64,000 bases of DNA from Trissonchulus latispiculum (lineage: Eukaryota > Nematoda > Enoplea > Enoplida > Ironidae), in assembly GCA_030248195.1 (NCBI GenBank), contig JASAND010013007.1, forward strand, positions 1-64,000, given 5' to 3'. The first letter of the stretch is position 1. The number at the start of each line of letters is the position of its first letter. Below are positions 33,331-64,000 of the stretch, piece by piece. The translations under genes and the position numbers were made by a program. Below the pieces are notes generated by a model. It saw only the letters and a program-made list of their open reading frames with translations, did no database searches and had not been told where the DNA came from.

Positions 33331-33865
33331 CCGCCATTTGCTGATTTAGTTTTCTCGAACTTTTTCCTGTGTTGGATGGGGCCTCTTACTAAAGCATTAG
33401 TTGTATTTGATAGAACCTGATTTTTTTATGATGCATGTTTAAATGATTTCGATGGATTTCTCCTCCTGTATTTATTCTCGCTTATATGATCTCAGCGCAG
33501 ATTTTGACTTTTATTTGGCTATGTATGCGTAAGCTCAAATTAATTTTTGAGCTTAAAATATCCATAAAAATGGAAATCGTGGCATGACTAAAAGCTACAA
33601 TAACAAACGTCCGGTACTCAAACCTATACCTTCAAACATGCATCATAGATTAATTGCATCCCATCAAATTCTACTATCTTTCTTTAGAGTTTCCATTGTC
33701 TAGACACTGAGCATCCCCCCTCTTTTTCTGAACTTTTTCAGGCGTGTGCTTACTTCTCTTCTTCAGTAGGGGGCCACCTCACCCCTCCTTCATATCGCAT
33801 TCAAGACAACGGCAATCCACTGTATACACCCGTTACCTTTTCTTTACATGATATACTCTTTGTAG
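33331..33865. other. No feature seen
   Basis: AT-rich unique-looking sequence between the repeat array and the relic exon. No open frame, repeat or signal that I can support. Confidence 0.4.
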
Positions 33866-34069
33866 AGCGGAGCGTGACGGATTCCCTACACCTTATTCAC
33901 CGATTCCAGAAAATCTCGTTGATTTATCAAGTCTTAGTAAAAATTCAAACTACAAGAAACCGTTTAACGTTAGAAACTGGTCCAGGGCCGGTAACTCCTG
34001 AACAAACAGAGATAACTGCAGCGGGCGCAGTTGCCACAACATCGAACAGTTGGGCTGAAATTGAACCAG
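33866..34069 (+). pseudogene. Relic exon of a third gene-A/B family member
   Basis: A GTAG acceptor is followed by an open phase-1 frame ending at a GTAAGT donor. Its last 40 codons align with exon 2 of gene B (53707-53877): TGPGPVTPEQTEITAAGAVA here against ATGPTTPNQSEATAEGAVA there, including the phase-1 donor after Pro. No matching first exon with the conserved N-terminal domain is visible upstream; the repeat array lies there instead. I read it as a truncated paralogue of gene B. Its 3' junction was copied in reverse to 25620-25706. Confidence 0.6.
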
Positions 34070-35421
34070 GTAAGTGTTCCATCTGTCAAGTGTTGTGCTT
34101 TTTATTTGAAAATACCAGTTGAATTAGTAGTGTTGATTCTTTACTATCTGTACACTTGTTTGTTATTGATTTTTTGTTTTTAAAACAAATTAGGATGTTA
34201 AGTAAACATTATAAACTTAAGAATTTCGAAGACTAACAATGGGTATCCCTCCTCGCATTATGCATTAACGCAGATATCTGTTTTTCTAGAAAAACCTAGA
34301 TCGGGATCAACAGCAGTTCAGCTTCTGAACAAACTGAAAGGAGAATTAGCAACCATCTGAGGATACTCACAGTGGGAACAGTTTCGCCACCCTACAGATT
34401 ATTAGCCAACACTAGCGGGATCATAGCAGTTTCTGGACCGTACTGATCTGAAGGCAACACTAGCGGTTCATAATTCTCACAGTTGCCCCGACAGATTCGA
34501 TTGTCTTATTAGTTGCAAAGGTACTACTACGCTGCTGTTGTTTCACTTCTCCTATGTCGTAGCCAGCTCTTTATATACTACTTTGTCCGTTAAAATATGT
34601 ATTTTCAGATTTTGCATATATTCAAGACCTAAACATGTCTTAATCTTTTTTGTCTTTCGTCACTTCCATAGTCATCAAGAAATAAGTGTGATTGACGAAA
34701 GAAAAGCAAATCGTTAAATTTTGCCGTAATTATTACTCCTATTCTAGAGGTCACCGGAGGACGGGCATCTAGATATACACTACCTTTCTACGCCAAAGCT
34801 GTCGATTAAAAATTAAACATTATGACATTATTTTAGAGATTAATCATTGTTTTCGTTTAATAGTTTCTTCAATTTTATCTCATACCAAATCTAACTATTA
34901 TTGGTATCTTTTAAGTGGACAGATTCGTTTCTATCACAACATACCAGGAACTGCTATATGTTTCCAACACGCGTCTCTATCCCGGGTTCCCCGAGCTTCC
35001 CCCTGTGTTTACACCAATTCTACTTATTCCATTTGTACTTTACTAAAAACAACTTTTTTATGATAATAACATGAAATACTTACGTTAACTTATAAAGAAA
35101 TACTTTTCTGTTTCAGAGAGTACCTCATGATAAATTAGACTTCTTCATCCATGATCAGATTTTCCTGTCTCCCCTATCCTGTCTCGGTGTTTGCGTTAAG
35201 GTTAATACAGTCACATTTAATCCTTCTCTTATTTTTTGGATAATTTGTTTGACTTCATTTAATTCTTAGCGTACTTGCCGAATCAGTCGACATTAAAAAT
35301 CTACTATTATTAATTTTAAAATCTACTACGAGTATCCTTCGCAGCAACGTATGCTACTGATTTTTATTGTACTCTTACATTTTTACTACTTGTTTTTCCT
35401 TATTACCACTTCTCTTTGTAG
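34070..35421. other. Intergenic or intronic sequence
   Basis: Possibly remains of further exons of the relic gene (for example after the TTTCTAG at 34284-34290), but none has both a clean frame and splice sites. Nothing firm. Confidence 0.35.
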
Positions 35422-35467
35422 GCTCATCTGTGTCTCACTGCTCCTGCAGAGTCTGGGTCCGTCTACA

Positions 35468-38421
35468 ATGAAAGACCGGACATGCGTCGATTGGTCACAA
35501 ATCCCGGAAAGGCTGACAGAAGAACCGACCCAACAACCAGTTCTGACTTCTTTCATCAATTCAATCCAAGAACAGCAGCAGGTAAAACTGCTTTCGTGGG
35601 ATCCTGTCGCGACATTCCCAAACCAAATCAAGTGTCCTATCCACAAAACACCTTTACGGAAAACTCGTTCAGCCAAGAGGAAGGACCGCCCTCCTCGCAT
35701 TTTCTGGGATATTACTTTGCCATTGTTTGTTTTCCATCGCTTCTACTCCTGCCGTGAAGATCCTACAGATGAGCATCAAATTTCGTCCTGCTCTCTCTCC
35801 ATTCTGGATCAGGTGAATAAAATAGTTCCGGTGCCTTTCATTTCGTTATGGAAATCTGGCATGACAAACGACTTTATTCATCAAGTTCGAGAGCTCTTTG
35901 GCGAATTGCGATCACACCGAGCTATAATGGAACATTTTCAGAGAGTCTACGGCAAAAAAGGATACAGCTGTTTCCCTAAGGAAAACTATTTAAGGGACTG
36001 GGTTTTATTTGACTTCCGTCTAAACTATCCTCTCTCACTTCTCCACAAAACCTGTACCTACTGTCTCCGTTTCACACGCCCCTGCTACTTCCTCTCCATT
36101 GACCATACCTTCAAATTCGTAAAAACAATTGGCCTGACCTATAACGGAAAGTGGAACAAAATTTACTATACACTGGCTACAATTCTTGATGGTTTTGGGG
36201 AGGTTATGGGGCTGAAATTCTGCGATAGCACGAGCTTTGCGGAAATCACGGATTGCATACGGGCAGCGGCCGATGAGCTTCGGGCATTAGGGAAAACCGT
36301 CGACTATATTCTGGTTGACAATTGTTGCACTGTCGCACGCTTTTTGAAAGAGCTGTTTGGCGAACAGGTCGTTATTAAGCTGGATGTCTTTCATATCACG
36401 CAAAGGCTGTCCGACTGCATGAGCAAGAAACGAAAAGGGTACAAGGAATTTCTACTCGCAATTCGCCGTGTCTTCCGGCGCCCGTTCGACTGGCAAGAGC
36501 AACGCATGGCTCCAACTCCGGATATTCCGGAAACTCTCGCCAACTTCGACAAATTCGTCAGTGAATGGAAAGACAAAACATATTGGAATCCAAAAACCAA
36601 GGAAACAGAACCTTTGCTGTCCAACTCTTTCCAACGTATTTGTGCCAATCTGAGAATTCATATTGCAAACGGTTGCACTAGGTAGATTCATTATTCATAC
36701 TACCTGTTTCTGTCCCTTTTCTTCATAATATAATGCAGTTTTTCTTATGAAATGATATAGCATCTTAAACACATATGTTCTGCTCTACCCTGGCTCATTC
36801 TCGTACCCTACTCATCTTGTATAGAACTGTACTGCATGAAGCCATACGAAGAAATATTTAAATATTAGATTACATGATTTTGTTTGTAGAAAGTTGTCTC
36901 TGGTATATAGCTCTGTCTTTTTCTATACAGTCTAAATAGCCAGTTTAAGTGAAACTGAGTTGAAGCGAAGCCTTCACGCGAACAACAACAGCAACCGGCT
37001 GGCTCTCACAGCAGCTTTCAAAGTGGCCTGCCGCGTTAAAATTTTTTGAATAAAAAAAGGAAGGTTGAAAAAGGCGCAGTAGCGAAACTAGTAAAGTTAC
37101 TCGGAACAGGCATCCTGTATTCTCTACTAAAAACTCCAAACGAATAGATTCAGAGCAATAGAGATTCAGAACATTTTAATCACACTATTGTATCTGTTTT
37201 ATTATTTTCAGTTGTATTCCGGTTGGTGTGGGAACGCATCTCAACGAAGTTTTCCACTCCTGGATTCGTGGGACCACAGAACGCGGCGGCACAGAAATTG
37301 GCTTGGATACAGCAGTGGCGCACATCACCACACAGCGGGATAAATGGAATTACAACAAGCACGCTGCCTGCACCGGTGTAATTGATTTCACTTCCAGCCA
37401 GCTGATTCTTTCTCAAACAATTAATGAACTGTCCCTCTGTCCACCTGAACCAATACAGAAAGCATCTGCACTGCGCCTACGTTACTGGGCTAAGCTGCTG
37501 CTACAGGAATCTCCGGTAATGGAAAGAAACATGTCTCTCTCTCTGCTCGCAGCCCTTGAAGATCCTATCACGGCCTTGCCAATCCTTCAACAGAACGCTG
37601 TCCCGCCCGAATCCTCGGAAGAGCACTGGGCCAAAGTAAATTCTGTTCTGCCATCTCCTATTCAATGGGGCCATCCAGTAGATACTTTCTGCAGAACCTT
37701 CTGTAGCGACGAGGGTAAACTGAAGCTAAAAACCTACATGGACGATAATCGGTACTCCACCCTGCAGAATCCAGAACTGTTTCTACAGAGCCTGTATCAA
37801 TATATATCCGAATCGATAAACTGGAACCGATATACAGGCACCGGACTCTCGGAACAGGACCAGACAGGTATGGCTTCACAATATCCTGAACACTGGCCAC
37901 GGAAGTTCGCGTGCGTGCAGATGATTGTTGACTACTGTCAGGTCCCAGCCGTAATCAGCACGGACACCGAAAACGCTCCTCAACTGGTAATTTCGCCGCT
38001 ATCAATGGGGTTTCTCAAGTATGACACTGGGTGTCTCCTGGTTTTTTGGCGCTGCTACGATAACTGTTTCTGGTGGGAATGGCTAAGCTTGCCTTCAGCC
38101 CTTCTCCCAATTCTACTGAAGAAACGGAAACGACGTCCTACACTGCGACCTCCCGAAGTCGGCACAGGCTGCCACTGCTGCGCCAATGTTGAGAATTGCT
38201 GCACATTAGACGGAGTGAGCAATACATACACCTCGAGGTGCCCCTGCTTCGTCAATGATATGTCGTGCGAGTCCTGTACCTGCAGATGTTGCGGGAATCC
38301 GTTTAATGAGTTCCAGCAACCTGCCTCTGCTAATGCTCGCGAAATGAATGTACCAATTCTCATAACGCGGCATGTGTCTCGGCTTCACTCCCTCCGTCTC
38401 CCTGCAGAATCTCCTCATTAA
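35468..38421 (+). CDS. DDE-type transposase-like protein with Cys-rich C-terminus (two exons)
   Basis: Exon 1 runs to 36681 (donor GTAGAT, phase 2) and exon 2 from 37212 to 38421, giving about 807 residues from the ATG at 35468. An upstream TTTGTAG acceptor at 35421 means a 5' exon is possible. Candidate catalytic acids: Asp at 36101 (SIDHTFKF), Asp at 36316 (YILVDNCC), Asp at 36383 (KLDVFH) and Glu at 37246 (GTHLNEVFH). The splice joins GCTS to CIPVGVGTHLNE, a motif I associate with a widespread animal transposase-like family; I cannot name the superfamily. The tail (about 38164-38303) is a Cys cluster (GCHCC, SRCPC, CESCTCRCCGNPF), probably zinc-binding. By analogy it would cut and join element ends in the nucleus. 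The intron holds a 66-bp copy of a gene A exon. Confidence 0.7.
36963..37028 (+). repeat. 66-bp perfect copy of a gene A exon segment inside the transposase intron
   Basis: Identical to 46145-46210 (starting AAGCGAAGCCTTCACGCG, ending TTTCAAAGTGGCC). A short upstream AATAGCCA is also shared; beyond that the sequences differ. Same orientation as gene A. It sits within the intron at 36682-37211. Confidence 0.9.
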
Positions 38422-38424
38422 CCT

Positions 38425-38691
38425 GTACGGTGGTGTTTTCTGGAATACCTCTCACTGATGCAACTTGTACGTCAGCAGCAAGGGGGGCAAGGCCCACTTG
38501 ATTTCCCCGCGCTAGCAGCATCATTTAATTCTCGAAAACTGATGCTCCTGTCTGCTGGTATTCGTCCCGCTGAAGCTAACTGTCAACGTATAAAAAATCA
38601 GCTATTCATTCTATTTACGAAGATGCAGGAGGCAGGAGCAGAAACATTCGCTAGTCCTGCCCTTCTGCAGTTACAAGATTTTTTTCATTAG
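38425..38691 (+). CDS. Short open frame after the transposase, possible extra C-terminal exon
   Basis: A frame open from just after the transposase stop to TAG at 38689-38691 has normal composition (QGPLDFPALAASFNSRKL, LFTKMQEAGAE), unlike the T-rich frames further right. It is in a different frame from the transposase end, so it could be a continuation lost by a small indel or reached by splicing, or a chance frame. No domain is recognised and no own promoter or start context is convincing. Confidence 0.35.
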   Translation, partial: VRWCFLEYLSLMQLVRQQQGGQGPLDFPALAASFNSRKLMLLSAGIRPAEANCQRIKNQLFILFTKMQEAGAETFASPALLQLQDFFH

Positions 38692-38699
38692 TTTTCATT

Positions 38700-40910: not shown

Positions 40911-40913
40911 ATA

Positions 40914-42073: not shown

Positions 42074-42079
42074 GTTACT

Positions 42080-43623: not shown

Positions 43624-46600
43624 ATGAGAGAATCCAAACGTATTCTCTATCTCAATGATGATGACGTTGGAAATACTATATATTCTATTGAACGCTTGGC
43701 CTATGTGCTTCTTCTGAAAGAATATGGCCACTATTCCACCTATGAACAGGCTGCAACAGCGCAACATGTGGATGTTGATTCATTACTGAAAGCCGAACAG
43801 CTCATACGTGCGAAAAATGAAACCAACATTACACATATTGCTTCATCCACCCGTAAACGTATGCTCATAATAGAATATTTGTTCATTTCGGAATTTATCT
43901 AAATTGTCATTAGTGTCAACGCCATTTATTACTCTTGCCGGACTGTATTCACACTTATAGAATAGTACTGTCACTGATTTATCAGCAACACTATACCAAC
44001 AACAACTGTTGAATCTAAAACTTCAGCATGTGTTTAAAAAATTCGTACTTTTATAAACAAAGGTCATTGCTTCACTGCGCACAATGAAAATATACAACTA
44101 TGACACATCTATTTCAGCATACACGGCGACTTCTAGTGTTTCTGTCTGCGTGGAGCCGGAGCCAGCCGTCCAGTATGGAAACACGTCCGAGGAAGCAGTT
44201 GGAGATACAACCTCCAGGAGTGAAGATCCGTCTCAAACTAATTCAGGACGTGATGATTTCAATAGTCCTAGCCCGCATATTGTCGTGCTGAAGAGAACAG
44301 CTCCCGACGGATCTGAACAGGGGGCAAATGAACAATTAGAAGTCCGTGCTGAGGATAGTGTGTCAGGTATAACAACAATATCGTTGTTGTTAAGTCCCCC
44401 ATTCATCGTAGGCTACGCTTACCCTTCCCTTGTTTTCAGTCATAAGCAGTACTAACTCCGAAACGTACTAAAAGTTATCTTATCAATCTAAAAATCCCAA
44501 TGTTGCTTTCATGAATTGCTTGTTTTTCCATAGCCTAACACCATTTGATTCTTATGTTTGTGTCCCAGAAATGACATACAAATAAAAACCTAATTTCTAT
44601 TTCCCCTTTTACCCGCATTTATGTCATTTTCTCGTTTTTCATTTTTCGCTGATATGTATCCTTTTATGTTCATTTACTTTTTAGATTCATCTCGCCAGGT
44701 GAAGCCAATGCCTCAGAGTAGCACAAGCGATGGCACGAGCAACGCACCTAGAATTTCATTTGCTCTTGCCTCAACTGCTGCTCAATCTATCTGCTCTGGT
44801 CCAGTTGTGCCCTATTCCGCAACAAGTAATGTCTTCTTTTTTTGGCTTTATGTTACGCTTTTCTATATTAGCTGCTTTTTTTAGGAACTTCCAAAAAAGA
44901 CTTTTACCACTATAGATTGTCCTCTAAATCACGTTTCTATATCCACATTCCTGGAGTCTATTTTTAAACTACATTTGGTCTATGAGAATACTAATGCTGC
45001 TCTCCTATTCGCCCTATAATCAGTGCCATCATGGATCAGAATATATCTCCACCCTAGAAACAGTTATTTTTACATCCTCCGCCATCTTACACAATCTCCC
45101 ATACTTCTCCCTCAGCCAGATTAGATAACGAAAGGAAGAATGAATCTACAACCTTCAGCATAATCGAAGAACTTAACAAGTTGTTAACAAAAGGGCAAAC
45201 CCTATAAAAAAGGGGGACAGCAGTAGGGGCCACCAGAACCACCAAAAACATGCTACAAAGTAGCGGAATCTCGTCTTTTTGTTCTTCATCTCCTTTAACA
45301 TCATTTCCTCCCCCCCCCATTCCCCTACTATAGTTCGGCTAAATATCTAAATATCAAAACTTTTTACTTTTTAGTAACATCTCCTCACATCAAGCCTAGA
45401 TCTGAAAATACCACAAGCGAAGATAATAGCACCGCCCCCACATTATCGGTTGGTCTTGCCCAAACTGCTGTTCAATCCAGCTCCGCTGCCTCTTTCCCCC
45501 CGCTGTCCCCTGCTAGCCATTTCATGCCATCAAGCAGCAACACTTCTCCTCCTGCATCTGGTGGTACATCTTCTGGTACCTTTTTCTTGCAGTTTTCTGT
45601 TATTCTTTTCATTATAGTCTACTTTTTTGCCACGTCAAAATATACGAATTAAGCTACTATACACTTATCTCCTAATTCTCTCCCCCTCTGCTTCTGCCCC
45701 GTAGTCTCCTTCTAGCCGTTTCATGTTCTCAAGCTCCAAACTGTATTTGGTGCAATATCATCTGTTACCTTTGTTGGTGGTTTTGTGTCAATCTCGTCAA
45801 TGTAGTGTGCATTGTTTTTTTTTCAACGTCTGAACAAACAAATTAAGCAACTATTCACGTCTCTCCTACTTCTCTCTTATCCTTTTTTTCATATGGTAAG
45901 TATGACAATGAAGTTTTAAACCTCACCTAGCCTATTGAGAATACTGTTGCAATACGCATTCGTTATTTCATGTCTGTCTTATTTCAGCAAAAATTTCTTC
46001 CAATCTTTAAAATGTTATTTTTAGAATGTAATCCATCTTTAAAAATCGTCAACACTTACTCCCTCAGCCAGAACAGACGACGGGGAGCTCGAATGAGTGT
46101 TGGACCTCCAGGATGGCGACAGCGAATAGCCAAAAAGAAGCAGCAAGCGAAGCCTTCACGCGAACAACAACAGCAACCGGCTGGCTCTCACAGCAGCTTT
46201 CAAAGTGGCCAAAACGAGTCACTCGGCGTTCATGCTCTCTCCCTTATGAGTGATCAAGATACAACTAGCGGTGAGACACCAATTTTTTTTATCTGAATTT
46301 CATTGTTTCCCGCTTTTCAATATAATTTCGCATAATTTTATAAAATGCGTAGGTAACTGGCACACGCCTTTTTTATTGGAAACTGTGTAATCATAATTGC
46401 AGATTTCCTGAACGAAATATATCTGGATCAATTTTATAGCTTCCATTATTATTAATTTTTTAAGTTCGTGTTGTTTTAATTAACCCTAATGCCAATGTTA
46501 CAATTCATCTCATTTTGTTTTATTCAAATATTGTTTTGCATCCCACGTGTATCAGTCTTTGTATATTGACTTTGAGTAACGTAACCGTACCTTCAATAAC

Positions 46601-49595
46601 GTTAGACCTGATTGTTTCAGAACTAGTGGAGACAAATGTAGCGCAGCCAAACCGTGCCGCAACTCCTATAAATCAGATTCCACCTGTGGTGGATCTAACT
46701 TCATCGCCAGAGAACTCCGCATATGACCTGTGCTCAGTCGATGGTGAGAATTTCCCTATACTCTCCTGCACAAATTATGTTCTTTTAATTTCTTGTGTAT
46801 TGAACTTAAAGCAATCCTCTCTTCTCATCTCAACATATTGTTTTTGACAAAACATATGACGGCTTTGTGATAACTATTGGCGGGAATAGTGTGCTATTTT
46901 ATTTTTAAAAAATAACATTCTTTTTCAAAAACACTAACAAAAGTTAGAACCTGAGTATGAGTGACAAATTCAATACCGGGCACTGAGGGGAATTGCTCCT
47001 CTTATTGCCGCCATTACTGTCTGGTATACTATCCACTGCCCTTTTTTAATCATTTCAGATAGTTCGTCCCGCCCCAGTACTCCGCCCCCTGGTAAGATTG
47101 TTTCTTCTATTTGTAGTTTTACTGTCATCACTACTTCCATTTATAACTATCTCTAATTATCTTTTTCCAGTGTCCTACTCTTATCTTTTCTCTAAAACAA
47201 TGTACTATTCATATTTTACCATCCTTACTTTATTATTTCAGACAGTTCGTTGCGCCCCGCTACTCCGCCTCCCGGTAACTCTTATTCTTCTAATTGCTCT
47301 GTAGTCTTCTTGACAAATTATATGATGGCTTGTGATAACTATTGGAGAGTATCGTGTAGTCTCCTATTTTTAAAAAATTGCATTCTCTTCCAAACTAACA
47401 AACGTATTAACCTGAGTAGAACGGGGCAGACAAACAATTTGCGAAATTTACAAATTTCTGCCACTGAAGGAAATTGTTCCACTTAATATTCCCGTTACTG
47501 TTTACCATAGTATGCTTTGTCCTTATATTATTATTTCAGATAGTTCGTTTCGCCCCGCTACTCCGCCCTGTGGTAAGATTGTTTCTTCTAATTTCTAATT
47601 ACTTGTTTTCTACTACTCTATTTCAAGTTTCTCAGTCATCACTATTTCCATTTATTACTATCACTAATTATCTTTCTCCAGCGGTCTACTTTCATCGTTT
47701 CTCTAAAACAATATACTAATCATATTTTACCATCCTTACTTTATTATTTCAGATAGTTCGCTGTGCCCCGCTACTCCGCCCACCGGTAAGTCTTATTCTC
47801 CTAATTTCTGTTAACTTGTTCCCTAGATATCTATTAATACTCTTGCTGCCTGCACTATTTTCAAATATTACTATCTCAAATTGTATTTCAAAATTAAAAT
47901 TTCCTACCCTAAACATTTCAATTAAACAATCCACCAACTATAACTAGTTTACCAATCTGACGCTTCTTTTTTCAGATACTCCTGCCGCCTTAATGCAGCC
48001 TATAATCTGTAAGTATTAATCCAATTCTCTAAATCATGATTTTCCCGTAAGCATAGCCCGTAAAAAAGCCTTTGCTTTTTGATACAATCTGATCATAATT
48101 ATCGCGATACGCTCTACTTCGTCCCATATCGCATCTAATTTTGTACATTTTATTTGTTTCAAGCTTTGAATCAGTTGGATCTAGAGAACACAGGCGGGAG
48201 CGTAATCATCAAAGGAAAAAGAAAATTGGTCGAAGAAGACTCTACGGAAAATTCAGGCACATCAGGTTAGTTTTCTGTCGGTGCTTCTACCTGTCTATTA
48301 TATTGCGTATTAATTCGCTTTGAGTTCACGAACTGTATTTCATAATCGAGGAAGAATACATATTAATAGCACAGCTCTTCTTGCAAATGTTACATTTTGT
48401 GTTTTGACTCTTTCAGATAGCAACGCAGACAGCAGAATTCTACGTCCAAAGACTTCTAAATCTGCTGTAGCCCCCATTCCAGCATCGAAACCTGTGGCAT
48501 CATCGTCCAGGAGAAAGAACAAGAGCAACAAAACTACGAGAACAACAAAAGGTAAATCAACGCAATAACATAAATTTATCAATCCCTGCTAGCTATTCCT
48601 CAACAGAAAGCGAGCTGTAACACCATTATAAGTGCGAGCAATGTTGCTTCGAATAGAGGAGCCTACCGCGCCTTTTGTTTTCATTATCAGATTCTGAATA
48701 TTTTGTAACAATGTGTCTGTGTTTATAAACGATACCTGGACAACAAAGTAACCAGTATAACTTCGTTTATTATTTCAGGGAAAGAACCTGTCTCTCCTGC
48801 AGCCGGCCGTCAAAACCGAGCTCAATCGTCTGGCACCAGTGGTGCATTTAAGTCCAGAACTACAATTGGCTATCGTAATTGCTATTTTTTTCATTGGTTT
48901 TTTTTTGTAAAATATCTACCAAGAGTAACCTAACTAATTCTCCTACGTTGTTTCTGCTATTCCTTGACTTTACTCGACACCCCCTCAACTTTTTGCGCAA
49001 CTTTTTGTTTCTATTGCGCTACTTTTTGTTTCTATTCATAGACAACATTCAGTCCCACGAGCAGCCTGTTAAATGGAACATACCTTCGCTACTGCTCTTG
49101 CTTCATTCCAACTGTCACATTTCTTATAACATATATGATCAGTATGTTCTAAGCGTATTTTTAAAATCCACCCGTTTTACGATCATTTCAGCCTATCAAG
49201 TACAGGATACGCCCGGATTCATTTTTGGAGTTGGTGATGAACTTGCCCGTCCGCTCAACACCTACAATGAATTGGAAAATCTAAATCTGATCCTCTACTC
49301 GGTGAAAGGCGAAACTGATCGTTCAGCGCTCCATCTCGGTTTAATTCGCCACTTGGATTTTCAGACGAAAAAGGCAGATATTGCCAAATTCTGCAAAACT
49401 CACTCATTCGTCAACACGGGACATACTTGGTTCCGCAGTCCCGTGGCATCACCATCCACTACAATTCCTTTCACCGATATCATGTTCAAAATCAATACTC
49501 CTCTCTGGAACTTTACCCGTGATCAGTTCGCAATTTTTTCTGATGATTTTGTTTTTTCTCTGACCAAAAACATTAATAACCCGCGTGACATTTAA
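43624..49595 (+). CDS. Gene A: modular Ser/Thr/Pro-rich protein with helical N-terminal domain
   Basis: Supported exons: 43624-43852, 44118-44366, 44685-44825, 45375-45575, about 46085-46270, 46621-46743, five 33-nt exons (47059, 47242, 47540, 47753 and 47976 as starts), 48164-48265, 48417-48551, 48779-48874, one starting near 49042, and a last one ending at 49595. Almost every junction is phase 1. Exon 1 encodes a helical domain (YSIERLAYVLLL..YEQAATAQHVDVDSLLKAEQL) shared with gene B, perhaps helix-turn-helix. The middle is Ser/Thr/Pro-rich and probably disordered, with HIVVLKR (exon 2) and PPVVDLTSSPE (exon 6) resembling SUMO-interaction motifs, and basic patches (KGKRKL, SSRRKNKSNK). The last exon is globular-looking (FVNTGHTWFR). 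The start of the fifth exon and the 49042-49200 junctions are unresolved. Function unknown. Confidence 0.65.
45225..45365 (+). repeat. Dispersed repeat copy in gene A intron
   Basis: Matches 52826-52965 upstream of gene B (CAAAGTAGCGGAAT, GTTCATCTCCTTTAA, CGGCTAAATAT..AAATATCAAAACTT) at perhaps 80-85 percent by eye. Same orientation in both places. Confidence 0.75.
45690..45785 (+). pseudogene. Decayed duplicate of the preceding exon
   Basis: TCTAGCCGTTTCATG..TCAAGC and ATCATCTGTTACCTTT repeat the end of the exon at 45375-45575 and its donor region with indels. No clean acceptor or donor remains. Confidence 0.5.
46850..47785 (+). repeat. Tandemly duplicated two-exon unit in gene A
   Basis: Unit 1 (about 46850-47274) and unit 2 (about 47310-47785) each contain a long intron part, a 33-nt exon, a short intron and another 33-nt exon. 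Introns align as well as exons (TATGAYGGCTTGTGATAACTATTGG; TATTTTACCATCCTTACTTTATTATTTCAG). The exons encode DSS-x-R/C-P-S/A-TPP-x, 11 residues each, all phase 1 at both ends. Confidence 0.9.
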
Positions 49596-53157: not shown

Positions 53158-56100
53158 ATGCCTGTGGTCCGATATTACACCATTAGCAGGCTGAACTCTG
53201 TACTGGCAAAGGTGGATAATGGCGAGTACACAAACATCCAAGACGCGGCTAAAAGGACAAAAATAGCGGAACCGGCACTACTTACTGCCCAGGAACTCAG
53301 GGACAATGGGAATCCCAACAACATCACAAAGATCCCGTGTGGAACCCATGAAGCAAGGCAAGCAAAGGCGAACGCTGCAGCCGTTGCGGCACTAAAGCTG
53401 AAAAGAGGTATGTCGCATTTCTGGTTAATAGAACCCCAGAACTAACTGTATCCAACTTTAGAGGTAACTCAGTTTTCGTCTGTAATCCTGTAAAATTGTC
53501 ACTTTGAGAAAATAAACTTAACATATACTGGAACAATTGTATCATCTCATTTGATCATTGAAAGAAAAAAGGAACGTAACATCTGGACGACAGATGGTTT
53601 ATTGGTTGTTTCGAGTGAATTTAAATCTGTGGTCTCATGACTAAATGTGTCACAATTTTATAATTTATTATTGACAAGCTCAACAAACAAACAATTCATT
53701 TTCTAGAGACAGATACCACGAGTCCAAAACAGGGAGCTAAGCGAAAAGGCATACATTCAGCAAGGACACGACAAAGGACGGAAAATGCTACAGGGCCAAC
53801 GACTCCTAACCAATCAGAGGCCACTGCAGAGGGCGCAGTTGCCAGACGACCTGTGGTTTTCGCTGACACAGGCCCAGGTACCTCTTCTATTCTTCTCGCG
53901 TATGAATAGTGACATGCAGGAGAAACGCGACTTGCTGCTAGCCTAAAAAACTACTAGTCAATATTTATAACTTTTACTTGTCTCAGCATTATTGCTGTAA
54001 TTAACTCTAGTCTGTCACTATAACTGCTTAACGGAGACGACGTTCCTGTCTCAATTGAATGAACTCAGAGGCATTTCCTGATTTAGGAACAGATTCATTG
54101 CAGCAAAACAACAGGACGCCCAACGCGAACAGTTCTCCCCCTGTCTCTGCTGAGAGAAGTGTATCAGCAGCTTCTGACAAACAAATGGAACCTGGAGCCG
54201 CAGCACAAGATCATAACTCTGACAGTAGTCTGGAAAATTCGCCTAGGCTAATTATCGATGAGAATCCTGGTAAGTCCTCCCTTTTCAATTGTTTATGTAT
54301 ATCTTGTGCACGAACTTTTACCTTCATTTTCATTGGTTGCTATATAGTCAGACATGTGAACAAGATGTTGGTTGAATGAATTCTATACCATTCGATTTTG
54401 TTTCGACGATCTAATAAAACACTCCCGACCCCTGTTAGCTTGTTTCTTTGTCTTTACTAGTAAATATTTTGAGCTTTCGTTTGAACTATTTTCTAGTTCT
54501 TGCAAGCCCAATGGTGATTCCTCCCAACACTGGTTTGCAATCTTCTTTCTCAGCCTCCTCAGGAACAACGAGTTCAGTAACGCCTACACCACCTCAAAAC
54601 GCTTATGCCATGATATCTGCACCTCAGATGAAGTTGCCAACTGGCGCCGTCACAATGCGCAGTAAAAGTTTGTATATTATGTTTGCCTGCCGCCTTCTCT
54701 TTTGATTTCCCATCTAATTGTCAAGGGCAAATCCATTTCATTTTGCAGTTTCCATTCAAGCATGATTTACAAATTGACCTTTAATTATTTGATATAAAGT
54801 AAAATAACTACATTTACTCACATTTTGTGTATGATCCAGTTTACTTTACATTTTCTGCAGATAAGAACAAGCGATATGCCGACACGCCCGCTGATACCAC
54901 TGCCCGTCGTACAAGTGCTAGACTTCAGGAGAAAGTTTCTTCTTCAAATCTTCAGTCTGAACTTCCTTCGGCCGACCAGCAAAAAGCATCACAAAAAGTG
55001 GCAACAAACCAACAGGGGCCTCCAGGTACAGACACGATACTACCTGTCTTTCATGAATACAACTTTATCCCCTGTATGTGCAAGCATTTACCTATTTCTA
55101 CTATTTATTCAATTTGTGCCCACGTAATAACCTACTTATGGATATTGCTTATTTCAAATCTAACACTTAATTTGCCTATTCCTTTAAAGTCAATTTCTAA
55201 TGAAATTTAAATTGTTACAGAACCTGCACAGCGTGGACAGGTCAACAAGGTTACTCGAGCTACGGACCTCGCGTCTACTTCAAAGGGCACATCAGGGGAG
55301 CCAAATCCGCGACAACTGTTATCCATTGCATCCCGTAAGTGATTAGATTTTCAATTGTACAATTCGATTGTTGTCAATTTCTCGTTATTTCTCTTATCCA
55401 AAACTCTTGGCTTTTTACTTATCTTATTGCAAAATGCATTAAGCTAGTCATTTATCTTCAGCTTTAGTCTACGCTCAATCGATATGTAGGATCTCGTTAA
55501 CTGATGCATTTTTCACATACTATACTTCAACACAAACAGTTATTGTCATAAAGTAGTCCAAATGTAGACACGAACACCTGCTACATGCTGTTTGCTGTCT
55601 CCTTTTTTTAGAGAAGAAATTGCAAACGCTGATGAGAAATGTGCGAACTGCAGAAAAACAACACGAGGAAGATGAGGACGAAGAGCAGACAAGAAAACTT
55701 CCAGATTACGCTTATGATCTCATCAAATATCTCAACAAATATGGTTTTTCTGGATCATTTCTCCTAGAAGGTAACGTATTCCACTATTTCAATTCTTTTT
55801 CTCAACAAATAAAGGCTCACCGCTTTTTAAGCAAACGCTATGGTAAATTCATAATATATGGAAGCCCGTCCGCCACATGAGAACAACAACTCAAACGATC
55901 AAAGTAGCCATTAAACAAATAATAGAAAGAACATTGTCTCCACTCCCCCATTCTTCCCCCTGCTATCTGCTCATACAGTCACACTTCTCTTTTTCTTCGT
56001 TTTTTACTGTTAACGTTAATGTTTTTAATTCAATCCCTGTGCGTTGTACAATGACATTATTTCAATTAATTTAAATTCAAACAAGTTAACTCTACCTAAA

Positions 56101-56542
56101 TTCGTTAACATTTTTTCAGCGGAACAGACTTTACCGAACGAGAATGTGGTACCCGCTAATGAACAGCACCACATAGTACTGGACAGTGAAGAATCAGCTG
56201 ATGTAGTAGCTGGCCTCCCCATCATGCTCACCTTGAATTCAGTAGTTGCCACTGATTACATCCCCGTTGACAGTAACCAGGCATCGAAATGGTTAGCTGT
56301 TATCAGAGAAATTGTCCCGGAGTCCCCCAACTGTGCAGTTGAATTCTTTACTTCTGCCCCTCCCCTTTGAAGACCATGGATTTCACTGGTTCCGTCTTTC
56401 TGATCCCCCCTGCATTAAAGTCATTCCTGTTAAGAATGTTCAACTGAAACTGTTCACATTTGTACAGAAAATTAATGGATATGTATACTGCGTGTTGACC
56501 CCAAACTTTCATCAGCGTGTATCACAGTGGTGCTCTCATTGA
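53158..56542 (+). CDS. Gene B: paralogue of gene A, eight exons, frameshift in the last
   Basis: Exons 53158-53407, 53707-53877, 54087-54269, 54497-54661, 54861-55025, 55221-55334, 55612-55770 and 56120-56542 all join in phase 1. Exon 1 encodes the domain shared with gene A (YTISRLNSVLAKVDNGEY, IQDAAKRTKIAEPALLTAQ, NNITKI against NETNITHI in A). The middle is Ser/Thr/Pro-rich with a basic stretch (GAKRKGIHSARTRQR), an acidic helix (EKQHEEDEDEEQ) and SUMO-interaction-like HIVLDSEES. The last exon runs in frame to TGA at 56368-56370, but the next frame continues as LPFEDHGFHWFRLS to TGA at 56540, resembling the HTWFR end of gene A. A one-base indel near 56350-56365 (CCCCTCCCC) best explains this. 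Possible poly(A) signal at 57181. Function unknown; probably nuclear. Confidence 0.65.
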
Positions 56543-56700
56543 CTGGCTATTATCATTTCTTTACTTCACTTTTTTCGCATTCCCATTACTTATTTTTATC
56601 TTTTGATTGACTGTCCTCATTGACTGGCTATTATCATTTCTTTACTTCACTTTTTTCGCATTCCCATTACTTATTTTTATCTTTTGATTGACTGTCCGTT
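56537..56700 (+). repeat. Perfect or near-perfect tandem duplication, about 79-bp unit
   Basis: CTCATTGACTGGCTATTATC through TTTTGATTGACTGTC occurs twice in a row directly after the gene B stop, probably in its 3' UTR. 56760-57110 also contains two related blocks ending in GTTTTAAATGTTTTACTT. Confidence 0.9.
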
Positions 56701-57180: not shown

Positions 57181-57186
57181 AATAAA
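57181..57186 (+). terminator. Poly(A) signal candidate for gene B
   Basis: AATAAA about 640 bp after the gene B stop, followed by a T/G-rich stretch (TTTGTTGCC, TCTGTTTGTCGTTGT). Gene C converges from the other side, which fits a transcript end here. Confidence 0.5.
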
Positions 57187-57264
57187 AATTTGTTGCCTTC
57201 GCTCTGTTTGTCGTTGTAATTAAGGACCCCTCTGAAGATATCTTGAAACTGAACCACTTTTTTA

Positions 57265-57705
57265 TTAATAATTAACAACACTTAGAGAATCTCCAGGCAC
57301 GGGAGACGATAAACAGCAGATGACAATTGACCAGTTCTGCCGCTTCTCTGATATATCCGGCGCCTGGCTGATGTACCCAGAGGGGCCAGGCATAGCCGGT
57401 CCAGAAGGCTGATATGGAGGCGTCCGGAAAGGCATAGACGCCACCGTTATGGCCAGCTGCTGCAAGCCAGGAGGTAATTGTTCCAACAAATTAGATGGTA
57501 TAGAGTCCGGCGCGCTGCGCAGGTTTCGTTCTTCGGTTTCTGTCGACTCCCCGCTGTCGGATTCATCAGAATCGTCTACCGTGACAGTGGGAGCCGCCGA
57601 TGCTGAAGGCATAGGATGTGGCAGCGTCGAGGATCCGATGTATCTATCTGTAACCTCTTCCAAAATTTTTAATTTTCTGGTGGACATGGAAATTTCACTT
57701 GACAT
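57265..57705 (-). CDS. Gene C: small acidic Ser/Pro-rich protein, antisense
   Basis: A single open frame of 146 codons on the minus strand, converging on gene B. The N-terminus is basic and helical (MSSEISMSTRKLKILEEV). The centre has a hydrophobic-acidic stretch (PTVTVDDSDESDSGES) of the kind seen in SUMO-interaction motifs with an acidic and phosphorylatable tail. The C-terminal half is Pro/Gly-rich (PPYQPSGPAMPGPSGY). Composition is unlike the T-rich spurious frames nearby and resembles the disordered middles of A and B. AATAAA overlaps its TAA stop, so its poly(A) site is unclear. No family recognised; the plus-strand frame here is its shadow. Confidence 0.55.
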   Translation of the reverse strand: MSSEISMSTRKLKILEEVTDRYIGSSTLPHPMPSASAAPTVTVDDSDESDSGESTETEERNLRSAPDSIPSNLLEQLPPGLQQLAITVASMPFRTPPYQPSGPAMPGPSGYISQAPDISEKRQNWSIVICCLSSPVPGDSLSVVNY

Positions 57706-57719
57706 GGATACTCTTTATT

Positions 57720-58640
57720 ATATTCTTATCTCACTTATCCGCAACTCAATTTCTCAATTCACCACCCTCATACATCTATTAGAACCAACATTCTAATATG
57801 AGACTAAAACGATTTCTAACACACAGTGATAAAGAAAATTATTAAAAGTGAGCAAAACGGTTCCTTTGCCTCGCATACTTCAATAAGCATTTACCCTCGC
57901 TTGTCGTGAACAGAGTAAGGAGAAATTAGACAACTAAACGAAAGCTAGACAACAAGAACATACAATAACAAACATGTTAAGGAGACTCATCTCACACTCT
58001 CCATGCGGCCACTCTGACCAAAAGTTTCTGGTAACAATACTAAAATTTTTCTAACATTATTGTTTTTAATTTCTCGCAACCCTTCTCTATGCCCCCCTGC
58101 AGCGAACTCTATTATTGCCTCATTTTTCTTTATTTCGACATTACAAATTAAAATGTTCTTTTTCATTGCCTTCAATTTTCATCTTTTCCCTCTCCCGGCA
58201 TTCAACTATCTTATCGCCTCACAAACTCTATTAAATTCTACATTCCACATTTGGTACCCAACTAAACTTTTCTTCTCCACTACGAATATTGTTCTTCCTC
58301 GCTTTTTTCTGGACATCGTCTTGTTTATCGAAAAATGACGGAACCGATAAAATCCCTCATGATTGCGCACTATGCGAAAATGGGGACTTCTCCACCCCTT
58401 CCCCCTTCATAGAACTTTCTTCATGCCTTATATTATCTTTTTATCGTCATTTTAACTTAAATTGTTTGTTTTCAGTCCCTGCAATTTTCATCTTTTCTCT
58501 CCCCAACATACAGCTATCTTTTCGCCTCAAAATCCCCTTTATTCCCCCATTCCATATTTTCTATCCAACTAAACTTTTCTTCTCCACTATAAATACTATT
58601 CTTTCTCGCTATTTTTCTAGATATCGTCCTGCTTTCCGAA
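57720..58640 (+). promoter_or_regulatory. Upstream region of the primase with a duplicated start segment
   Basis: About 58165-58390 and 58475-58700 are related at a fixed offset of 308-309 bp (TTTTCATCTTTTC, AACTAAACTTTTCTTCTCCACTA, then ATGACSGARCCG). The first copy carries its own ATG (58335) and 25 codons ending in TAG; the second opens the primase. A tandem duplication has thus copied the 5' region and first codons. A TTTTTCTAG just before the second start may be a 3' splice site. Confidence 0.65.
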
Positions 58641-58642
58641 GA

Positions 58643-59876
58643 ATGACCGAGCCGGTCAAATCCCTCAAGATTGCGCACTATGAGATTATGGAAACTTGCT
58701 CATGTGTAACTCTGCCTCTATTTGAAATCTTCCCACGTCAAAATGAATGTCTAGCTTTCCTGGAAAACGAACGGCACCACTGCCCACTGTGTATCTTCTC
58801 ATATGAGGTTACTGATTACGGCTCCCGCATATACATTGCTTCAACTGCTGAACACTTTTCCCATGTATATATGAAAGTTCCTTCCTATGAGCGTTTCTTC
58901 TATGAAATCCTTCCAGAGAAACGGCCTTGCAAACTTTTTTGATATTGAATTGACGCACAACAGGGAGAAAGACTCGGCTCTATTTAATAGATTCTTGGAC
59001 AGTCTGCCATCAGCCATTGAAAGCATGACGAACACTGTGTCGAAAGAAGATGTGAAATTCTCTATGCTTACCTCCCATAATGACCGAAAACTCAGCTATC
59101 ATCTAATCGGGACCAATTTTCTGTCATTTTCCTCCATTAAATTGGTTGGCGAATTTGTGAATAAGTTGAGAGACCAGTTGCCTCTTGATTTACACATCTG
59201 GGATACATCAGTATACTCGAACAACCAGAACTTCAGAATATGGCTGTCAACGAAGAGGAAGGAAGTTCGCCCTCTAATCCGCCCTGGCCACTCTGATTCT
59301 GCTACTGCCAAATCTTTGGTTGAAACTTTTGTTGGCAATTATTCGTGTCTGTGCTCTCCTCAGAAACAGAACAGGCTCTTTGATAAAATCTGTATGGCAC
59401 CGCTGTATCAGTTCCTGGCACCCACATCTAGTTCTTCAAAGAAGCGAAAACGACCCGCTCCTATATTTGATTTTCAGCGTTCCCAAACGGCGGGTCCCTC
59501 CACTCCTTCTGCCTATGCTTATTCTGATGAGCCTCCGCCTCCAAAAAGAGAAGCAAATCAAATGGAAACAATTCCTCAAAACGTAGAAACGGATCCAATC
59601 AAGAGTCAGATATGGAAGGATATTGCTATTGCTTGCCCAGGATATTTGATCACAAATTTCATTTTTTATGATTCAACCGTAACAGTTTCTGTCCAAAATT
59701 TGAAATGGTGCCCAATGCTGAAACGAGAACACTCAAGTAATCATTCGTATTTCGTCTACGACATCAATTCCAAAACCTATCAATGGCGATGTCATGGTGT
59801 TGCATGTAAAACTGGAAATCCGCCCCCTGTCCCGCCTTATTTTAAGATTGTAAATGGTGAAAAGCTGAATTTGTAG
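58643..59876 (+). CDS. Primase-polymerase (archaeo-eukaryotic primase superfamily), one frameshift
   Basis: Read as about 411 residues in two frames meeting at a T run (58935-58940): 58643-58942 ends in KRPCKLF then TGA, while the overlapping frame continues FFDIELTH. The catalytic set of PrimPol-type enzymes is present: DIE (58941-58949), SYH (59094-59102) and the third Asp in WDTSVYSNNQNFR (59202), a segment very like eukaryotic PrimPol. A basic patch (SKKRKRP) and a disordered linker follow, then a UL52/PrimPol-type zinc finger (C at 59709, REHSSN, C-x4-C near 59790). It would make primers and extend them on element DNA. A one-base surplus or two-base loss at the T run, immediately before the active site, disables it unless it is a sequencing error. 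It is shorter than human PrimPol. It precedes the helicase on the same strand. Confidence 0.85.
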
Positions 59877-60252
59877 CAGTTTTCTTGTCTTTATTTTCTA
59901 TTATATTTTGGTACTAGTTCAAAGCAGTGACATATAGTTAACAATCTGCAATTACAAAATCTTCTTTTATCTCGACATTATTTCAATATCTGCCATTCAT
60001 TTTAAAATCAGTCGTGCGCTATGACTGCTTTGAACCAGTCCTCTTTCCGAGTTTTGTCTTTTGCCTTTCTCTACTTCTGATATGTTTTTCATATGTTTCT
60101 TTATTTTATGTCGTGCTTACTGTTTTTGATTTCTTTCCCCTTGTATCTCAATTCATTACTATCTTTATTATATTCTCCTTTATGTTTATAACATTTTTTT
60201 ATCTTCCAAAAATTTTTTTTCTACTCCATCCCCACACTCCAAATGAAATCAC

Positions 60253-60258
60253 AATAAA
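60253..60258 (+). terminator. Poly(A) signal candidate for the primase
   Basis: AATAAA in ACAATAAAAG, about 380 bp after the primase stop. No competing signal nearer. Confidence 0.45.
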
Positions 60259-60364
60259 AGAATCTGTCAAAATGATACAATGACTAGTGTCAATAGTCTA
60301 AAACTGAACGATACTAGACCTGCCCTCCACTGATGTATGTTCAGAAATTTCCTGTTTTATCATT

Positions 60365-60485
60365 TGAGCGTAACTATTTCTGTCCAAAATTTGAAATGAT
60401 CCTCTTTGCTGAAATAAGAATACAACACCAATTTGTCTAATCTAAAGTACAACATCAATTCGAATCTCTAATAATCACCCTGCCA
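60365..60485 (+). pseudogene. Relic copy of the primase zinc-finger region
   Basis: GTAACTATTTCTGTCCAAAATTTGAAATG..CTGAAA.AAGAA followed by ACATCAATTC repeats 59685-59775 of the primase with frame-breaking changes and loss of the Cys codons. A tandem pair at about 60573-60662 (TATGATTTTT.ATAATTATGTACA, CCAACCGGTGACATA) resembles the primase 3' flank. Confidence 0.65.
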
Positions 60486-60699
60486 GTATGATGCATCAAT
60501 AAGAGGGCTCTCCTCTCCTTGCCTGGTTACATTGTCAGTGGTGATACCCTTATATTTATAGCAATTTTCTTCTTTGTATGATTTTTTATAATTATGTACA
60601 GCTACCAACCGGTGACATAGTATGATTTTTATAATTATGTACACCTTCCAACCGGTGACATATTCTTAGTAATGTATTGCTAGCAAATCTACTTTCAGT

Positions 60700-61560
60700 T
60701 GAAAAATCATTCAAGTCTATCATTCATTTTTTCCAGAGTTATCTTAATCCGCGGTACCTAATACTCAACATTTGTTCACATAAAAACAAATCGCAAACAA
60801 TTGCAAACTTCCACTTTTAATATCGTAAATGTTTATTTGCAGAACATTAACACTATACACTCTCTTTCTACTATGGTATAACAGCAGCCCCTTCTTCTTC
60901 TCTCTACTACGGTATAATTCCAGCCCCCCTTCTTCTCTTCATGCTATTTTCCTGTTATGGTTTGTCGTGTTTCAAATGTTTTTCGTCGCAACGTCATATT
61001 TATCAATTGTGTATATATTCCTCTCTATGCTTAATGTTTGTTATTTAACCTATCATGTTCTCCGTAATTCTGTTTACATGTTATGTTTCCCACATACATT
61101 TCTCACATCAGTCTTCAAAATTATGCAACGTATCTACTTCCATTATCGCTCCTCCTGTTCAGTCTTCGCTTTTCGTGATCAGTTTACAGCTCCTTTTTCG
61201 TGTTCAGTTTACAGCGCCCGTTTACATTGCTTTTTGTACGCCATATATGTTTACTTTATTTTATTAATATATGTTTTTGTATTTCTCTGTTAGTGTAACA
61301 ATCCCATGTAACCCATTTCCAGTAATCACGACATAATTTCACAACAAAGCGGGGACTGCGTGCATAATGAAACGAGAGAAACATCGCTGACTCTAATCAG
61401 ATGCTAGCGCATATACAACTACACCCATGTGCAATCTAAATGATGCCTGTCCCAAGTGTATTTCTTTCAAATAAATTGTTTTTCCCCATTCCCTCCATAT
61501 CCTGTGGTGCGAACTTTGCAATGTATTTGTCCTACTTTCACTTCTACACTTACGCCTTTA
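60700..61560. other. Intergenic, no feature
   Basis: T-rich stretch with composition-driven frames and a short duplication (CTACTATGGTATAA, CTACTACGGTATAATTC near 60868 and 60905). No signal supports a gene. Confidence 0.45.
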
Positions 61561-61567
61561 GTTACAA

Positions 61568-61744
61568 ATGTCCCAACACTCTGCAGTGGACAACGATCTC
61601 AATGACAACAATTCTGCTTTCATTGAGGAAGAGGCCAATGGACCGGGGGCAAGCCAATCCCAATCCCCTCCGCACTCAATTGCTCCTTCGTTTGCTGAAG
61701 GCAACAACTCTACATTATGTTCCCATATGTTCCCATTATGTCTT
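61568..61744 (+). CDS. Possible first exon of the helicase gene or small ORF
   Basis: A 58-codon frame from ATG with an acidic, Asn/Ser-rich composition (DNDLNDNNSAFIEEE, GASQSQSPPHSIAPS) that looks like a disordered N-terminus. The next acceptor (TTTTACAG at 61899-61906) would need a phase-0 donor, which I do not find, so the connection is unproven. Confidence 0.3.
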
Positions 61745-61852
61745 TGAACATATTACTCAGTATTCACTGCAACGTACAATCATATCGTGCATAATAGTAC
61801 CATTTCTTAATAATCTTAAATGCCCATCATACTGCTCCTAATGTCTATTTAA

Positions 61853-64000
61853 ATGAGTGAAAATATCAAAGCAGCTTACATAAATGTTCACCAACTTCTT
61901 TTACAGGCCAATGTCAACAAAAATGTCCGAAATGTCACAGGTATAATTGATTCTATTGATCTCTCAGCTCTGGAGGCCCAGTTCGCAGAACAACGTTCCG
62001 TTCCTTTCAGTTTGGACAAAATTCTGCCTGATGACGAAGTCATAGAATATATTACACTACATAGTGTTACATCTCCCAAATCTACCACTCATATCCTCGG
62101 TTCACTACTGCAGCTCAGCCTCTTCCTGGGTCAAGGTAACCCCATCCCGTTCAGAGTAGTCACATAATTCAACTTACATTTTGTAGCTAGTCCTTTCACA
62201 TAAACATGTATCGCGTATAATTTGTTATCATAAATACATTTATCTATTTTCCTATTCCAGATACGGTTGTAAACTACGAACTTCCTGGTACGCGGAAACC
62301 TGCAAAGCAACATCTCGCCAGTATTATCAAACTAGCCGGGCGATCATGTACTGGCAAAACTCCTGCCATGGAAACATTTTTCCGAAATCCGCTTATCGAT
62401 AGCTTTGGCGCAGAGTGGTATCACACTAAGTGCAGGGGAACATGCACACTGCAAGGCCTCCACAAGCATCAGAGGAAAGTAGGTACCCTCAATTATACGA
62501 CGCCACTTACAACTTAATTATGATCAAAATACACTTTCTAAATTGATTTCAACACGTCAAACAGCCCGCCTGGCGTGTGTCCTTTTAAGATAATTTCGGG
62601 TTTTTCGTTGCAATTAACGAAGTAAACGGTACCGTATTTGATTTGTCCACGTACAGAGGAACGTTCCCTCCTCATATGAATTCATTTAAACAACTCACCC
62701 TGTCTCCGTGGCATGTATTCTTTCACGATATTTTCTAGATACTCCTACAATTTGCAAGTAACGGCACCAGCATTAACAGTTACCCATGTGTTTGCCCCTA
62801 AATCTGCAGAAGATATCTCAAAATGAATAACTCGTAGTCATCACTCACGTAGCCAAACAGCCCCCACGTTCAAAAATTCAGTGTATCGTTTTGACTTTTG
62901 GAATTATTACCTCATCCAACAAATATCTAAGTATCATTGGCACGTAGATTTTACTTTCAGCTCGTGAATGACAAGAAGGATCCAACAATGGCAATTGTAA
63001 GCGATGAACTATACGGTGCAATTAATATGCTTGGCAAAAGTGGCAACGGGGCAACCTATGACGGCTACTTTTGGTTGAACGCGCGGTGGTCAATGTTTCC
63101 AACAAGTACAGCCTTGAAGCATACAGATGATGAAATCCCTGTAGATGCTACTGTGCAAGTGTTGGGGGCGTTGGCTCACAAACTACTGCTAAAGTTTTTC
63201 CATAATGCTTAAACGACAGACGGACTCTGGGAACGGTAACTTATGTTCTCTTCACATTTCCTAATTAATTTTGTATTTTACTTCTACTCTCTATTTTAAT
63301 CATGTATACCCTACTTCCACACTTTCGCCTACAAGTACCTCGGGATTCCTATAACAATGATCTTGATTCTCTATTTTAGTGTCATCCTATTTCCGGACAA
63401 TACAACTTATCATACAACTACTGCCATGAAAAATTCTATTCTCGATAGTCAGTACAAAGCGAAAACTCTGCAGGAATCATTCATGTTCGTGTGGCATCTC
63501 CACAACTCAAGATACCTCAACACAATTACACTAAACTAACAGAATCATACTCCTCTGTCCTCCTCTCACATAGCTACCCTTCTTTTGCCCCCTACTTTGT
63601 GTTTAGTCTGGCTTTTTTCTCAACATTTTGTATTTCTCAGCACTAACACTATCATTCTCTAATGAATAATTGAAATCCCACATCATCTTTCATAATTTCA
63701 GTAACCAGCCAGTATCCTACACCTGCTCTCCTGAAGCAATCGAACGATTAGAATGGTACTGGGACAAACAAGTGAATTCAATTAATCATGATCTGAACAG
63801 CGGCCGACCATTCGACAGTAATCCGAAAACCATTCAAATCGGAATCCGCCTAGCAGTGGGTTATCACATTCTGCGCTACATCGTAATGCTAATGTGCTAC
63901 GGAGATGAAGTGCTTCCCTACTCGTTCATCTTGACTGCCACTGATGTGGACTGCGGACTAGCCATTGGTGATCAGAATGAGGATTGGAAGAGAACTGTTC
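61853..64000 (+). CDS. DUF3987-like P-loop helicase/ATPase, partial, with in-frame stop
   Basis: Exons in consistent phase: 61853-62135 (or from the acceptor at 61907), 62261-62478, 62961-63235, 63380-63451 and 63702 to beyond the window. Exon 2 holds a Walker A motif (AGRSCTGKTPAMETF) and exon 3 a Walker B-like AIVSDELYGAINML, in the order and spacing of DUF3987 proteins, which accompany primases in plasmids and phages. Exon 3 then reads through TAA at 63210-63212 into TTDGLWER, and the next exon continues VILFPDN, matching the DGLxxRF..P pattern of the family; so the TAA looks like a nonsense mutation within real coding sequence. Exon 5 (YTCSPEAIERLEWYWD) is open to the right edge. By family it would unwind DNA for the primase. 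Without read-through the product would lack its C-terminal third. Confidence 0.65.

Follow-up and report, generated by a model that had tools for sequence, protein, structure and literature searches.

What brings a transposase gene, a primase gene and a probable helicase gene together in an animal genome, and could such a set belong to a mobile element that copies itself? The question is raised by contig JASAND010013007.1 of the nematode Trissonchulus latispiculum (assembly GCA_030248195.1; 734 Mb, 21,732 contigs). We analysed the first 64,000 bases of this contig of 79,944 bases (C8830 below) and refer to this stretch as the window. A preliminary description, made from the letters of the DNA, had proposed a large self-replicating mobile element with a DDE transposase, a PrimPol-type primase, a DUF3987-like helicase and two paralogous proteins, A and B. 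Our analysis indicates that the locus is probably one damaged copy of a large eukaryotic DDE transposon family, which carries a PrimPol-type primase, a probable helicase and the genes A and B, and which would prime its own replication.

A collinear block in four near copies

The element part of the window spans positions 33361–64000 on the plus strand, as delimited by blastn against contigs C10408, C9729 and C5838, and is collinear in all three. The block keeps the same order throughout, in collinear pieces of ~78–95% DNA identity, and on C8830 it continues past the window to ~75.6 kb (blastn against C5838). The other near copies lie at ~100.4–131.9 kb of C10408 (plus strand), at 77.5–45.9 kb of C5838 (minus strand) and from 27.5 kb to the contig end of C9729 (minus strand), the last contig stopping short of the helicase core. 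In all four near copies, the window included, the transposase lies within the collinear block. Judged by DNA comparison, the conclusion holds that the greater part of one copy of a large mobile element lies at window positions 33.4–64 kb; the element measures about 42 kb or more.

A divergent copy was found on C10544. Its transposase, primase and helicase show ~27–46% identity and lie on one strand, the primase at 26389–25136, the transposase at 24635–21870 and the helicase from 19307 to ~15978, in an order unlike that of the window.

On C10408, similarity to the element extends to ~137.7 kb, where the contig folds into an inverted duplication; within C10408:131561–146000 the right part of the element is duplicated in inverted orientation, with 98.6% identity over 4.4 kb and 89% thereafter. 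The C7404 primase loci are likewise in an inverted arrangement, and the window itself holds an inverted repeat at positions 5–16561, with arms of ~8 kb and 89.5% identity.

Primase and transposase are linked across the genome

Searching the genome with the primase piece gave 89 matches at 59 loci, and transposase exon 1 gave 103 matches at 85 loci; these locus counts are lower bounds, with 103 of 173 transposase candidates scored. At 44 of the 59 primase loci a transposase lies on the same strand within 30 kb, where random placement predicts 0.2. For 38 primase loci the distance is at most 6 kb (0.04 expected by random placement), and the transposase lies downstream in all 38. The six further loci within 30 kb have it upstream, without exception; going by their coordinates, four of these belong to the window element and its near copies. 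In this window clade, the transposase is found ~22 kb upstream of the primase, not directly downstream. A single primase locus, on C3459, has its transposase on the opposite strand.

Seen from the transposase, a primase is present on the same contig for 43 of 52 strong loci and for 45 of 85 loci overall. The two outcomes that the preliminary description had named as speaking against an element were thus not observed: transposase and primase do co-occur, and the genes are not scattered singly without shared boundaries, the block being collinear from ~33.4 to 75.6 kb and 44 of 59 loci being linked, although the exact ends were not found. Within 1.5 kb flanks of 20 primase loci, we detected a transposase at ten and a helicase at three; four belonged to the window clade, and three had neither (two of them being one gene). 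Across nine elements, the identity matrices of primase and transposase are strongly correlated (Mantel r = 0.872; 6 of 20,000 permutations as high).

The transposase

The transposase gene consists of two exons on the plus strand, at 35468–36681 and 37212–38421, joined across a GT-AG intron into an open product of 807 amino acids (aa). Exon 1 encodes the catalytic Asp residues and the DxxH motif; D212, D284 and D306-x-x-H309 are invariant in all eight sequences of the exon-1 alignment. The exon-1 query retrieved three database relatives (best expectation value, E, 2.4e-22), and with the relative P0001 278 residues align at 30% identity. Exon 2 encodes an NE..H segment and a Cys-rich tail, as well as a region that by eye is laid out like an OTU domain. 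The NE..H segment aligns with P0001, a candidate for the third acidic residue seen in one relative only, and the Cys tail aligns with the same protein at 30% over 53 aa (E 0.003, single comparison). No transposase family in Pfam scored above its cut-off, the best being DDE_Tnp_ISL3 at E about 0.1. On these sequence features, the assignment of the predicted product as a DDE transposase with a DxxH motif is confirmed, together with the Cys tail first noted in the window and, of the acidic residues noted there, the two Asp.

P0001 contains an OTU-like domain, for which the Pfam matches are weak and under the cut-off. The exon 2 region at ~37600–38140 is laid out like this domain with the catalytic residues apparently missing, an observation by eye for which a profile search gave no match. 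The transposase intron also holds, at 36963–37028 (plus strand), 66 nt that exactly repeat a stretch of one gene A exon (46145–46210).

The primase

The window primase (58643–59876) is split over two frames, with an N-terminal piece at 58643–58939 and a C-terminal piece at 58935–59873, both on the plus strand. The frame break lies in a T-run at 58935–58940, ahead of the C-terminal piece, which encodes the DxE, SxH and third Asp motifs and the zinc finger. Compared apart, both pieces match the protein P0004 (E 3e-14 and 0.001, single comparisons). A database search with the open C-terminal piece returned this one protein (E 4.3e-6), which in turn matches human PrimPol at 2.2e-26 and the Pfam family AEP_C962R at 1.1e-6. 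In an alignment of ten loci of the genome with P0004, D101, S152-x-H154 and D188 are invariant in all 11 sequences, as is a zinc finger of the UL52-type CHCC pattern (C357-x6-H364, C384-x4-C389). The DIE, SYH and third Asp that had been read from the window correspond to these family positions, so that the earlier assignment stands, with the gene in two frames. Pfam Herpes_UL52 matched three of the 11 primases at E 0.1 or less and none above the cut-off.

The family profile matches human PrimPol at 1.8e-27, or 2.2e-19 with P0004 left out, and in a profile search of the PDB human PrimPol provided the sole matches. A structure predicted for the C10408 primase (predicted local distance difference test, pLDDT, 76.8; predicted template modelling score, pTM, 0.58) gave a similar picture. 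The ten best matches of a PDB fold search were all human PrimPol, with a best E of 7.9e-13 and template modelling (TM) scores of 0.62–0.71 by target and 0.42–0.44 by query, followed by herpes helicase-primase, poxvirus D5/E5 and African swine fever virus (ASFV) PrimPol. In a viral-library fold search, the best match was a pithovirus primase (E 7.4e-14, TM by query 0.40), and the best matches were mostly giant-virus primases. Because the viral-library and PDB matches are equally good, with E-values that come from different libraries, the fold alone leaves a cellular or a viral source undecided. By motifs, profile and predicted fold, the gene product is a putative primase of the PrimPol type.

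A decayed extra copy of the zinc-finger part, with six stops inside, lies downstream at 60223–60498 (plus strand), and at 58093–58697 the primase gene is tandemly duplicated in its 5' part (78% over 299 bp).

The putative helicase

Three helicase exons on the plus strand (61853–62135, 62261–62478 and 62961–63209) are followed by an in-frame stop at 63210–63212 and by a fourth exon at 63706–64000, which reaches the window end; an open reading frame (ORF) at C8830:64762–65709 is its probable continuation. The gene has canonical introns and starts at or near 61853. By eye, we recognised a Walker-A-like GRSCTGKTP and segments ISDE and DGLWER that look DUF3987-like. Copies of the gene are also found close to the primase in C10408, C5838, C10544 and C7404, and in C7483 by one short match.

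Of the DUF3987-like helicase proposed earlier, the gene itself and its Walker-A-like motif remain, and the family name is not confirmed. The window helicase had no Pfam match to DUF3987 (PF13148), and the C10544 helicase reached 11.8 bits against a cut-off of 27 (E 0.14). An hhalign comparison with DUF3987, in which one input row was misframed, gave a probability of 0.1, with 0.4 and 0.1 for two controls. A protein search with 250 aa of the helicase found nothing at E 1 in a length range that excluded full-length relatives, and tblastn against phages gave no match. We consider the gene to encode a probable P-loop helicase. We rejected stop-codon recoding as the cause of the in-frame stop, since the standard code leaves the 807-aa transposase open.

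Elsewhere in the genome, DUF3987 proteins gave ten matches on six contigs, the window helicase gene not being among them. At one of these loci (L001, on C19024) a DUF3987 ORF lies beside an ISXO2/IS1595-type transposase-like ORF (by eye), and similar DUF3987 ORFs of 566–568 aa occur on four contigs (L003–L006). These ORFs perhaps represent another helicase-bearing element family.

Genes A, B and C

Between transposase and primase lie gene A (43624–49595, plus strand; 15-exon model, 757 aa, VVDLT motif by eye) and gene B (53158–56370, plus strand; 8-exon model). The frame of B is broken in its last exon, as seen by eye, with a downstream piece to ~56530. The exon models come from in-house splice-site scoring and are approximate. 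Both products are long, low-complexity proteins. They had been described as paralogues with SUMO motifs; the paralogy is supported by 57 N-terminal residues that are alike (35%, E 3e-5, single comparison), and the SUMO-interaction motifs are seen by eye only. Gene A is matched in the three other near copies. C10544 has, upstream, a piece resembling the C-terminus of A (30% over 59 aa, E 7.7e-5) and no match to B; neither gene had a match within 1.5 kb on either side of the 20 primase loci examined with flanks. Loci that combine primase, helicase and A/B, as the preliminary description had envisaged, are found in part: the helicase recurs near the primase, and in C10544 A does so weakly and B not at all.

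An acidic 149-aa ORF at 57265–57714 (minus strand), for which there is an ORF only, is probably the gene C noted earlier. Within gene A, at 47059–47785, four 33-nt exons each encode a DSSxRPxTPPx-like repeat and lie within diverged tandem duplications.

Selection and strand asymmetry

Ratios of nonsynonymous to synonymous substitution rates (dN/dS) between near copies are low, at 0.06–0.22 for the primase C-terminal piece and 0.12–0.28 for transposase exon 2 (six of six pairs each). For transposase exon 1, the ratio is 0.06 in the one usable pair of six, the frames of C9729 and C5838 being interrupted. These values show the signature of purifying selection having acted on the near copies for a time, and suggest that the proteins were in use as the copies multiplied.

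From ~38.5 kb onwards the gene strand of the window is G-poor, with a GC skew of –0.235 in noncoding and –0.110 in coding DNA, compared with 0.005 in the first 24 kb. Per stretch of 10 kb, the three other near copies have a skew of the same sign in gene orientation (–0.09 to –0.23); this sign is reversed across the inverted duplication of C10408. At 74–80 kb of C8830 the skew is absent. This strand asymmetry may be the mark of asymmetric copying, and transcription could also cause it.

The termini

A scrambled repeat region at 25700–33360 borders the element on the left, and pieces of it are also found left of the block in the three other near copies. At the right, the element runs into ~103-bp tandem repeats in C8830 and C5838. 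Tandem arrays at window 18406–18656 and at C8830:74.5–76.3 kb, which flank the element, share ATGTGTCTC in the same direction; this array word has 15 bases, one mismatch was allowed, and it occurs three times at 18.4–18.5 kb. It is possible that these are direct terminal arrays, in which case the left end would shift to ~18.4 kb.

The scrambled region holds a retroelement at 27346–30254, in which a GIY-YIG domain (Pfam 2.2e-8) precedes RVT_1 (2.9e-5, under the cut-off). The order of the two domains resembles that of Naiad-type Penelope-like elements.

A transposon that would prime its own replication

We propose that the transposase cuts and inserts the element, that the helicase would open its DNA, and that the primase would lay primers, which host polymerases or PrimPol itself could extend. 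Whether before or during transposition, the element would be copied independently of the normal host schedule, and A and B may bind the DNA of the element and attract nuclear factors of the host. Of the mobile, self-replicating element first suggested for this locus, the mobile part is supported by the collinear block and the linkage, and self-replication is what we infer from the set of genes.

Several observations weigh against this proposal. All four near copies bear lesions, in the primase, helicase and B of the window and in transposase exon 1 of the other three (a single stop in C10408, broken frames in C5838 and C9729); an uninterrupted primase is present in some near copies. Neither terminal inverted repeats nor target-site duplications were identified, and on the left the element breaks up into scrambled repeats. 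In the parts of the element that were scanned we recognised no DNA polymerase, and the helicase has no significant family match. The skew of C10544 is weaker (–0.024 to –0.137). Finally, 15 of 59 primase loci have no same-strand transposase within 30 kb, of which seven are weak zinc-finger-only matches (E above 1e-4) and three (two on C7404, one on C7483) adjoin helicase matches, and for 40 of 85 transposase loci no primase was detected on the contig.

Among other explanations, a cut-and-paste transposon could have captured a host-type PrimPol for damage tolerance or excision-gap repair instead of element copying. Cellular PrimPol is a repriming enzyme, it is the closest solved relative, and the lack of a recognised polymerase would fit. 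However, a helicase lies near the primase in near copies and in C10544, C7404 and C7483, and the strand asymmetry would be consistent with one-directional copying; we regard this explanation as unlikely.

Slightly less probable is a viral origin, in which a large DNA virus of herpesvirus- or giant-virus-like kind took up a transposase, as in Teratorn, and left an endogenous remnant. The viral proteins that follow human PrimPol in the PDB fold list and the pithovirus match, as good as that of human PrimPol albeit from a different library, would agree with such an origin. Yet the 20 entries scanned with Pfam, which cover part of the element, held no capsid, terminase or PolB family, four scans of IMG/VR viral contigs gave no relative, the sole PDB matches by sequence profile were human PrimPol, and the genes contain introns.

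A host gene cluster that spread by segmental duplication and happened to have old transposase genes beside it would account for the four near copies taken alone, and large inverted duplications (window 5–16561, C10408) do occur in this genome; this explanation is very improbable in view of a transposase linked at 44 of 59 loci, primases ~30–100% identical to that of the window, and two gene orders. That the transposase is a separate nested insertion, an option left open in the preliminary description and suggested by its distance of ~22 kb from the primase in the window clade, can be dismissed, because primase and transposase diverged in step, the collinear block includes the transposase in each of the four near copies, and the transposase sits directly downstream of the primase at 38 other loci.

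Comparison with known systems

A self-priming transposon remains our favoured explanation of the locus. We put forward more tentatively, and with some doubt, that it belongs to an undescribed class, in which a DxxH DDE transposase is joined to a PrimPol-helicase module at dozens of loci of one genome, each of them a large element that would amplify its DNA from one end without a protein-primed polymerase. Among the open-access matches listed, as far as titles and the start of abstracts tell, no eukaryotic transposon with a PrimPol primase was recognised; preprints, most subscription papers and Repbase lay outside this scope, and the novelty of the family is provisional. The authors of a 2019 review of giant transposons suggested that transposons might reach unprecedented size if a primase and a nucleic-acid-primed polymerase were joined to an integrase (PMC6431247). 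The family described here has the primase, together with a transposase, and the two are linked at dozens of loci of a single genome. If our interpretation is correct, it would add a second route by which eukaryotic transposons control their own replication, and might connect cellular PrimPol and viral primases with transposons; the many open-frame primase copies would be a source for tests of self-priming.

Polintons/Mavericks, too, are eukaryotic elements of large size that encode a DDE enzyme and a replication protein of their own; the same review gives these as a retroviral-like integrase and a protein-primed PolB (PMC6431247). In contrast, the element described here has a PrimPol-type primase and a DxxH transposase, and neither PolB nor a retroviral-type integrase was recognised in the 20 Pfam-scanned entries, which cover part of the element. 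Teratorn, a piggyBac-herpesvirus fusion, is described there as an animal element in which a transposase is joined with primase and helicase genes (PMC6431247). Its transposase is of the piggyBac type and it has virion genes (PMC6431247), whereas no virion gene was seen in the parts scanned here. Teratorn is 180 kb long.

For Dada, hAT, Kolobok, MuDR and P elements a C/DxxH motif is described, with DxxH after the second catalytic Asp (PMC10045372), an arrangement shared by the window transposase. The window transposase scores above no Pfam transposase cut-off. We know of no Dada, hAT, Kolobok, MuDR or P member with a primase.

Modules of an archaeo-eukaryotic primase (AEP) and DUF3987 occur on prokaryotic plasmids and phages. 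The window resembles them in having a primase near a P-loop ATPase with DUF3987-like ISDE and DGLWER segments (by eye), and differs in being eukaryotic and intron-containing, with DUF3987 membership not confirmed. Cellular PrimPol (human CCDC111) shares the catalytic motifs, the zinc-finger spacing and the predicted fold of the AEP part. Unlike the cellular enzyme, the primase described here is encoded at dozens of loci in a single genome, most of which adjoin a transposase.

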